From assembly GCF_024868665.1 (NCBI RefSeq), contig NC_079895.1, forward strand, positions 25,189,554 through 25,253,553: 64,000 bases of DNA, written 5' to 3'. Below, in pieces: positions 51,511-54,500 of this stretch. The stretch comes from Triplophysa rosa (taxonomy: Eukaryota > Chordata > Actinopteri > Cypriniformes > Nemacheilidae). The notes beneath the pieces are model-generated. The model made no database searches and had not been told where the DNA came from. It saw nothing but the letters and a program-made list of their open reading frames with translations. The position numbers and the translations under genes are program-made. How positions within the stretch are numbered: position 1 is the first letter of the stretch; the number at the start of each line of letters is the position of its first letter.

Positions 51511-54500
51511 GTAAGAGTTGTGTACAGGTTATCAGAAGATATTTATATATTTTTTCTATCATTTCTTTTTAGCTATGCCGAACTAAACACTACTAAACAA
51601 TAAGTATACTACATGAAGTATGTTTGAGGAGACCAATATAGAAGCACGGTGGCTTCAATGTTATTACATCAGCAATTAAAGCAATTCAATTCTTTGTAAT
51701 GTCGATCTATGGTTGTATGTGTTTTTGTTTTGGCCAGTCTCATGTCAGTATCTAAATATAAAAAAAAATGTGTGTCTCTTTGTTGTGCAGATAAAGGCAC
51801 CATTGGGGATGTGGAATGTGTATGTGACGGGGTCTCATGTGGTGATGCGCAGCGCTGTTTTGGCCAGCAGTGTTTCTCTTCGTTTTCTGTCCGAAACGGA
51901 ACGGCCTTTCAGGAGAAGGGGTGCATTGTGGGTAGTGAGGAACGGACGATACGCTGTGGAAGCTCCCTCTCTTTGCTTTCTGTGGACACGGTGCAGTGTT
52001 GCCAGGGAACATTGTGTAATAAGAATGTTTCCATGGAGATGCCAAGCACAGGTGACTCACAAGCTATAATTGCTGTCACAGTTAATTGTAATGATTAACA
52101 TTTTGCTTTGTGACATTGAGTTATTGTAGGAAATTACAAATAATAGATAATAGATTTTTTTGAGAGTAAAATAATATTGTACGGTTCTTAGTTTTTGGCC
52201 TAAATGTATGGCCTGCTAATGCATATTGTGTGTGTGTCTACATAATATGTATATATTCTTTTAATTATTGGGTTAAATAGGAAGTGGGCATTTTCATTAA
52301 CCTGGAGAGTTTTCATTAAAAATTTGAGTTGAGTTTCATTAAAAATGGAATGAAATCATTATAAATAAAGAATTAGTACTTAACCTAACCCTGGGATAAG
52401 TTTTGGAAAATCTAAAATAATTCATGATAAATATATTTTTGTAAAATGGTTAATTTAGTATCTGATAACATCATATTAAAGGCGTAGTTGACCACAGAAT
52501 GAAAATTCTGTCATTTATCCTTGAGTCGTTCCACAACCATAAGACCTTCGTTCATCTTTGGAACATTAATTTAGATAGTTTTGATGAGGTCTAAGAGCTT
52601 TCTGACCCCCCCGTAGATCCATGTGGTTCAATCTACATTTCTGTCAAAATGACCACGCTGGAATGTTCTTACCACGCTGTTGTAAGTTCAAGTGTCCGTT
52701 TTTCTAATAAGCTTGGTTTTAGTTAGTTATAAGATGTTATAAAAAGGAGAGTGGTGAGTCATTGGGGAAATGCAGGCGTCGCATGCTCTCATGGACGTGC
52801 ATCGGATACTCTCGTCGCTTCATAAAATTAAGGTTCAACCACTGTAGTCACATGGTTTTACTATTGTAAAGAGTTAGAAAGCTCTCGGACCTCGTAAATG
52901 TTCATTTGTGTTCCGAACATGAACTAAGGTCTTACGGTTGTGGAATGACTCGAGGGTGAGTAATCAATGACAGCATTTTCAGTCTGTTGTGAACCATCCC
53001 TTAACCTCGTCTGCTATAATAAGCAACTTTAAGTTCAGACTAGCATCTGTTATTATATTTCTGTGTAACAGCACGATTAATCCATATCATATTTTTCTTT
53101 AGACATGGCTGTATTCTCCCTTCCATCTGTGCACCAGTGTGTGTGTGAGGGGTGTGTAAGTGGGACGTGTTGGGGTGAGCAGTGCTTCGCCTCTCTGAGG
53201 ATGAGAGAGAGCGCTCTGCACTCTCAAAAGGGCTGTTTTAATAAGACCACCTGCGACGCACCTGCTGACAGTGTCATCAGCTGCTGTACGGGACACCTGT
53301 GTAATGCCAACATCACTGTAGAGGCCCTTGCTAAAGGTGAGACTTAAGAACGCCGCTGTCTTTAAGAACATTTTTCCGTTCTTTACCTTCTTTTATCTTT
53401 CAATATGTAAAAACCGTGCCATTCCAAAGATAAAATGGCATCATTTACCTTTTAGTGTCAATAAAACAATGGTTCAGCAATAGTGGCAAGAAAAATAGGT
53501 TGGTAAAAAGAAGTTGCTATTAAATGCTTTGTAAATAATGTAATATATAATAATATAACTAGTACCAGATGGTAAAATAACACAGACACATGTTTTTCTT
53601 TTTCCCAGACGAGGAGTTGAAGATGGTCCCTACAGAGTATGAGTGCGTGTGTGAGGGCCGCTCATGCGTCACAGGGGGTCGCTGTATGGGACAGCAGTGT
53701 TTTTCCTCTCTGACTCTAAGTGATGGGACACCTGTGTCTCAGAAGGGCTGTTTCAAGGTGTATGAGCAGGGCAGGATGACTTGCAAAACTCCACCATCAC
53801 CTGACCAGATCGTGGAGTGCTGTCAGGCTCATCTGTGCAACATGAACCTTACTGTGGCACTTCCTGTACGAGGTAACACTGACATACAACTGCTTACAGT
53901 GAAACTGATCACAAACTAAATATTATTTTCCGCTTGTCAATTTGTTTGAAACCGAAAGAACTAAAAAGTAGGGCTGCGTATTGGCAAGTGCCTCCCGATA
54001 CGATACATATCACGATAGATGGGTCACGATACAATATGCTGCTATGTATTTCGACACGATACACGTTTGCGATATATTGCAATACTTTAAATAGAAAATG
54101 TAAAAAGTAGAGCTAGAAATACAACATGCTGTGCACCAGCGGGGGTTTTCTGTGAGGATAAGTGTAAAACATCCCTTACCTCTGCAGAGCGGCCATGATG
54201 AGCGATGCATGGACCTTTAGATCAGAGGTTTGGGTTCTCAAACTCTGGGTCGCGCCCCTCAAGTGGGTAGCACAGGGGAATAAGGTGGGTCATACTGTAT
54301 ATGACATGATTAAAAAAAAAAGATCGATAGTAGAGGTATCACTATCAAAACACTATCGAAAAAAAAAAAATTGCGATAGTTACATGTATCGATTTTTTTG
54401 CACAGCCCTACTAAAAAGTGAGCTGCTAAAGCTTCAGTGTGGTATTTAACACATGTAACTACGAGCATCATTTGACCATTGTGTCACTTGCGGTACTGCC

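Follow-up and report, generated by a model that had tools for sequence, protein, structure and literature searches.

The window, a 64-kb stretch of the genome of the nemacheilid cave loach Triplophysa rosa, contains a complete 11-exon gene (51444-63812, + strand) whose 672-residue product is a three-ectodomain form of the type I receptor ACVR1. This receptor is real and conserved, and it is an ordinary copy of a form already published; what is new here is the comparison of contact residues domain by domain, and a set of cyprinoid ACVR1 models that is set against a published loss. Our best explanation, in which we have good confidence as a whole, is that the gene is orthologous to teleost ACVR1 and represents its form with three ectodomains, an inner one that would signal and two outer ones that would space or modulate. 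The product consists of a signal peptide, three ten-cysteine three-finger domains, one membrane helix, a GS box and an ACVR1 kinase, and is encoded as follows:

51444-51510, + strand: exon 1, ATG and signal peptide; donor GTAAGA, ending in phase 1; helix 2-15 in the predicted structure
51791-52051, + strand: exon 2, ectodomain 1, outermost, ten cysteines
53103-53336, + strand: exon 3, ectodomain 2, middle, ten cysteines, shortened beta4-beta5 loop
53609-53872, + strand: exon 4, ectodomain 3, membrane-proximal, closest to the human ACVR1 ligand-binding domain
54609-54814, + strand: exon 5, membrane helix and juxtamembrane stretch (predicted helix 284-327)
57343-57442, + strand: exon 6, GS box; Pfam TGF_beta_GS (PF08515), 2e-16, residues 342-369
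57529-57675, + strand: exon 7, kinase
58729-59004, + strand: exon 8, kinase
60760-60957, + strand: exon 9, kinase
62057-62187, + strand: exon 10, kinase
63678-63812, + strand: exon 11, end of the kinase and stop codon TGA (63810-63812)

All introns are GT-AG with compatible phases. Exons 2, 3 and 4 are each a multiple of three in length, run from phase 1 to phase 1 and hold one domain per exon, and the introns between them measure 1051 and 272 bases. The preliminary description of this DNA had placed the three exons, open, in frame and joined to one membrane helix and one ACVR1 kinase, and the gene model agrees with it to the base. The family named there is likewise borne out by the GS box, the kinase identity and the NCBI annotation, as the product is a 100% match to 'activin receptor type-1-like' of Triplophysa rosa. 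Rfam gave no match at gathering scores. In the intron between the first two ectodomain exons, an inverted repeat (52519-52955) with 52-nt arms, 85% complementary, looks like a small mobile-element insertion.

Pfam matches were obtained for domains 1 and 3 (Activin_recp for domain 3, 7.9e-10), and domain 2 is recognised by tree and structure. Domain 3 resembles the solved human ACVR1/ALK2 ectodomain (PDB 7yru and 9n4k, ~2e-32), but the human receptor has one such domain and the loach receptor three. The loach kinase is 82-88% identical to solved human ACVR1 kinase chains among the 50 Foldseek rows shown for the modelled protein, all of them kinases, although the modelled kinase is of low confidence. 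The structure model (mean pLDDT 53.3, kinase mostly below 50), whose alignment took in 57 of the 120 listed homologs, is usable for the ectodomains and the membrane helix only; VIA-align gave ectodomain matches, with domain 3 barely covered. In a quick kinase tree, given 44 of the 120 proteins and using 43 (P0120, which has no cutting motif, was dropped), the loach gene sits among teleost ACVR1 models. That tree holds no confirmed row of the paralogue ACVR1L, and the grouping of domains 1 and 2 described below argues for ACVR1. The origin of ACVR1L itself is disputed between PMC13187141 and PMC5979292: in the parts available to us, one of them attributes it to the teleost genome duplication, and the other reports presence in shark, coelacanth and gar, an earlier origin.

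Three tandem domains are widespread in teleosts. A homolog search gave 3541 matches, and the best 120 of the 3541 were classified by counting domains with a cysteine pattern. Three ectodomains were found in 62 of these proteins, mostly predicted models, two in 22 and one in 36. Among the homologs listed, three-domain forms occur in a sucker, characins, catfishes, electric fishes, salmonids and pike, and further in cod, flatfishes, a seahorse and livebearers; eels, tarpons, bonytongues and herring are among the two-domain fishes; one domain is found in Amia, sturgeon, bichir and the listed tetrapods, and also in 12 teleost models. Each domain of all 62 three-domain proteins has ten cysteines, of which the pattern itself demands seven. 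Four proteins counted as two-domain (P0022, P0068, P0118 and P0119) have parts of a first domain that look mis-predicted. A bird protein considered as a possible triple (P0111; 647 residues, 59% identity, 99% query cover) was rejected, as it has one domain by the pattern; it also has a stretch resembling intron read-through. In an ACVR1-like model from the shark Heptranchias perlo (P0085), two ectodomains agree at 70 of the 72 compared residues. This near-identity may reflect a recent duplication, with an assembly artefact as the alternative; a duplication of ACVR1 in this shark is not named in the parts of PMC13187141 available to us.

In a quick tree built from 76 domains (37 of the 120 proteins), about half of the forks are open, and domains cluster by position and not by species. 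Loach domains 1, 2 and 3 group with the same-position domains of Colossoma, Tachysurus and Brachyhypopomus (support 96, 94 and 84, respectively), and domain order was tree-checked in this way for 12 of the 62 three-domain proteins. In two-domain fishes the outer domain mostly falls with domain 1 of the three-domain fishes; middle domains make up separate groups, and inner domains cluster with single-domain receptors. Not all sequences follow this pattern: in Megalops cyprinoides and in one Scleropages/Arapaima gene the outer domain is placed closer to the inner ones, and P0008 and Pholidichthys begin with a domain of the middle type. We read the first copy as old and the middle copy as younger, judging by these groupings. 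The idea that two duplications of one ectodomain exon made the receptor, put forward in the preliminary description, is upheld, as is its placing of three open exons in one receptor gene. It had also regarded a triple-ectodomain type I receptor as undescribed, which is not the case: such a receptor is published in PMC10501582 and PMC13187141, is annotated in NCBI and is old and widespread in teleosts. PMC13187141 (Jatzlau and colleagues, 2026) places a duplication of ACVR1 in early ancestors of Osteoglossocephalai and a triplication common to all Clupeocephala, and lists, over ACVR1/ACVR1L, BMPR2 and TGFBR2/TGFBR2L, 12 cases in which domains multiplied independently; the word 'loach' is absent from its main text. 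Taken together, the present analysis and this report show a single ectodomain exon that was doubled in early teleosts and is present three times in Clupeocephala.

In PMC10501582 (Trumpp and colleagues, 2023), medaka Acvr1 with three ligand-binding domains was cloned as a full-length cDNA; its Halo fusion runs at 130 kDa and raises a BMP6-driven BRE reporter. This is the same gene as that of the loach, with three ligand-binding domains to one kinase, but the loach receptor is known here from sequence, whereas that of medaka was assayed. A receptor class described as single-domain is modular in many bony fishes, which matters for fish models of ACVR1 disease.

The three loach domains are mutually 40-53% identical. 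Over the 62 triples, mean between-species identity is 58.1% for domain 1, 63.3% for domain 2, 78.9% for domain 3 and 96.0% for the kinase; the fold is retained in the outer two domains, which diverge faster than domain 3. In human ALK2, activin A requires Tyr74, and changes of Tyr74 and Met79 leave BMP6 signalling largely intact (PMC12415261). The beta4-beta5 segment containing these residues is 23.2% identical to human in domain 1, 34.0% in domain 2 and 71.0% in domain 3, and loach domain 2 lacks five residues in it and two more further on, giving a loop shorter than that of human. Tyrosine at position 74 is found in none of the 62 first domains, none of the 62 second domains and 58 of the 62 third domains. 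Position 79 of domain 3 is Met in 40 and Leu in 22 triples; in domain 1 it is Leu in 20 and Met in one. Loach domain 3 has both Tyr74 and Met79. Judged from these alignments, the activin-contact segment with Tyr74 survives only in the membrane-proximal domain. We note that alignments of fish ACVR1 must use the inner domain, the sole bearer of the activin-contact tyrosine.

The reported BMP6 contacts are Ser41, Asn60 and the adjacent Asp (printed as Asp60 in PMC12415261), which is position 61 in the numbering used here. Among the 62 triples, Ser41 is kept in 50 first, 9 second and 57 third domains, Asn60 in 21 third domains only, and Asp61 in no first, 42 second and 18 third domains. These three positions give a mixed picture and do not single out domain 3.

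In the explanation we favor, domain 3 would bind BMP, and probably activin too, at the usual type I site and drive the kinase. Domains 1 and 2 appear to keep the disulphide fold without much of the canonical contact surface and, because of this loss, would act as spacer or modulator rather than as extra copies of the same binding site, tuning access to domain 3 or limiting complex assembly. They may bind another partner. This explanation is supported by medaka, in which the three domains sit in one expressed receptor (PMC10501582). The triplicated Bmpr2a of Gnathonemus is similar in carrying three such three-finger domains in tandem, of which the innermost is the most conserved; activin A is bound by its inner domain only, and removal of the outer two domains increases signalling (PMC13187141). 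However, Bmpr2a is a type II receptor with two exons per domain and an independent origin. The putative modulator role is borrowed from type II receptors because we found no outer-domain deletion of any ACVR1 in the parts of PMC10501582 and PMC13187141 available to us. Several observations speak against our explanation: the Tyr74 pattern speaks for activin and not for BMP6, the BMP6-contact positions and the Met or Leu at position 79 are not confined to domain 3, and medaka three-domain Acvr1 gave the highest baseline BRE activity (PMC10501582), which fits poorly with strong inhibition.

An effect on avidity had also been suggested in the preliminary description, and the outer domains could in principle act with domain 3, all three binding a TGF-beta-family ligand and raising its capture. 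The ten cysteines of every domain in the 62 triples (seven of them demanded by the pattern) and the contact positions kept in outer domains (Ser41 in 50 of 62 first, Asp61 in 42 of 62 second) are consistent with such binding, and more ligand was bound by a human TGFBR2 engineered to have two domains (PMC13187141). However, neither outer domain has Tyr74 or Asn60 in any of the 62 triples, their segment identity to human is 23% and 34%, domain 2 of the loach is short of the residues noted above, and ancient, diverged outer domains are linked to inhibition in PMC13187141. We therefore rejected equal avidity of the three domains on the beta4-beta5 loss in domains 1 and 2, while noting the BMP6-contact positions that are kept, and consider a shared capture of ligand improbable; a gain from three like sites is unsupported where two of them lack much of this segment.

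The exons might also be cassettes, used alone or in subsets to present different ligand-binding domains. Drosophila baboon is a type I receptor gene of this kind, with several alternative ligand-binding exons (isoforms A-C); its fourth exons are mutually exclusive (PMC11195991), whereas in the teleost forms the exons are joined in series. With lengths of 3n and phase 1-1, every subset of the loach exons is in frame, and single-domain forms would measure 506, 497 and 507 residues, a normal length. Of the 36 single-domain proteins listed, 12 are teleost, and two of these, P0093 of Cyprinus and P0116 of Scleropages formosus, are domain-1-only models. P0116 starts with Met and a signal-like stretch, and its domain 1 is joined directly to the membrane exon; it shares domain 1 scores with the two-domain P0079 and P0081 and is identical to them in the juxtamembrane-kinase part. 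The three look like the same gene, which suggests exon skipping. The other ten teleost models have domain 3 only, and several start with Met and a signal-like stretch (for example P0077, P0083 and P0088; the first two are named isoform X2). Domains 2 and 3 occur together in P0008 (2141-base contig, loach-like signal peptide) and in P0080, 'isoform 2-T2' of Pholidichthys, and medaka acvr1 has at least two transcripts (PMC10501582). Sorting by mean identity assigned two of the 36 to domain 1, 34 to domain 3 and none to domain 2, with a rough sorter that wrongly put the middle-type domains of P0008 and P0022 under domain 3. Two region searches, one aimed at proteins with an isolated domain 1 and the other at those with an isolated domain 2, scored few candidates (24 and 43) and gave 4 and 7 matches. 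Against cassettes, three domains are joined in 62 of the best 120 homologs (mostly predictions) and in the cloned medaka cDNA, no domain-2-only protein is found among the 36, and P0093 and P0078 have no starting Met and may be faulty predictions. The introns of 1051 and 272 bases leave no splice-site crowding to force exclusion, and skipping of TGFBR2 domains is marginal in chicken and horse (PMC13187141). Cassettes as the explanation of this gene are thus unlikely, but it is quite possible that the exons serve as cassettes alongside the full form. The preliminary description had asked whether transcripts ever join more than one of the exons. In relatives, though not in the loach itself, they do, as seen in the medaka cDNA and in the 62 annotated proteins, six of which stem from contigs of 2963-3636 bases; we infer the latter to be processed transcripts because they are too short for an intron-bearing gene of ~12 kb. 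In view of these contigs, the cDNA and the recurrence of the triple array in 62 listed proteins of many fishes (order tree-checked for 12), the chance that assembly or annotation wrongly joined exons of adjacent genes is negligible; nothing was found in favour of it, and we rejected fusion of neighbouring genes on the recurrence and the cDNA. Assembly duplication, also raised earlier, is excluded by the 40-53% identity of the loach domains and by their cross-species grouping by position.

According to PMC13187141, Cyprinoidei have lost ACVR1 throughout; the models found here with domain 1 in Phoxinus and Cyprinus disagree with this. NCBI taxonomy places Phoxinus and Cyprinus inside Cyprinoidei, and Triplophysa and Myxocyprinus outside. 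Carassius, which we take to be a member of Cyprinoidei, was compared along with Phoxinus and Cyprinus. Four models from these fishes (P0016, P0077, P0078 and P0093) contain domain 1, domain 3 or both, but no domain 2. In the two-domain Phoxinus model P0016, identity with loach domain 1 is 67% for the first domain (51% with loach domain 3), and the second domain reaches 96% identity with loach domain 3. The domain of Cyprinus P0093 is closer to loach domain 1 (64% identity) than to loach domain 3 (47%), and the quick tree pairs it with the first domain of P0016 in a starred fork (98) within the domain 1 group. In the kinase tree, which holds no confirmed ACVR1L, the proteins of Phoxinus, Cyprinus and Carassius cluster with those of loach and sucker (cypriniform fork 86, cyprinoid fork 85, neither starred); the cyprinoid models are all predictions, the carp ones without a starting Met. 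It is likely, though not settled, that Phoxinus and Cyprinus keep ACVR1, contrary to PMC13187141, and the published loss needs checking. We found no earlier report of cyprinoid ACVR1 retention among the papers listed (12 of 15 and 12 of 853), judged by their titles and the beginnings of their abstracts. A broader reading, which we offer tentatively as somewhat less than an even chance, is that Cyprinoidei as a whole did not lose ACVR1: carp, crucian carp and minnow would have kept it with domain 1, domain 3 or both and, in the models found, without domain 2, the middle domain being removed and the outer one kept, and domains 1 and 2 of teleosts would be conserved as a non-canonical module with a partner other than the type I ligand site.

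Elsewhere in the window, open frames with immunoglobulin V-set-like domains lie at 12262-20868 on the - strand; three of the four tested reach the Pfam cut-off, and they are likely exons of one multi-Ig surface protein gene. An open frame at 21654-22085 on the + strand has a THAP domain (1.7e-05) and is perhaps transposon-derived or a piece of a THAP gene.
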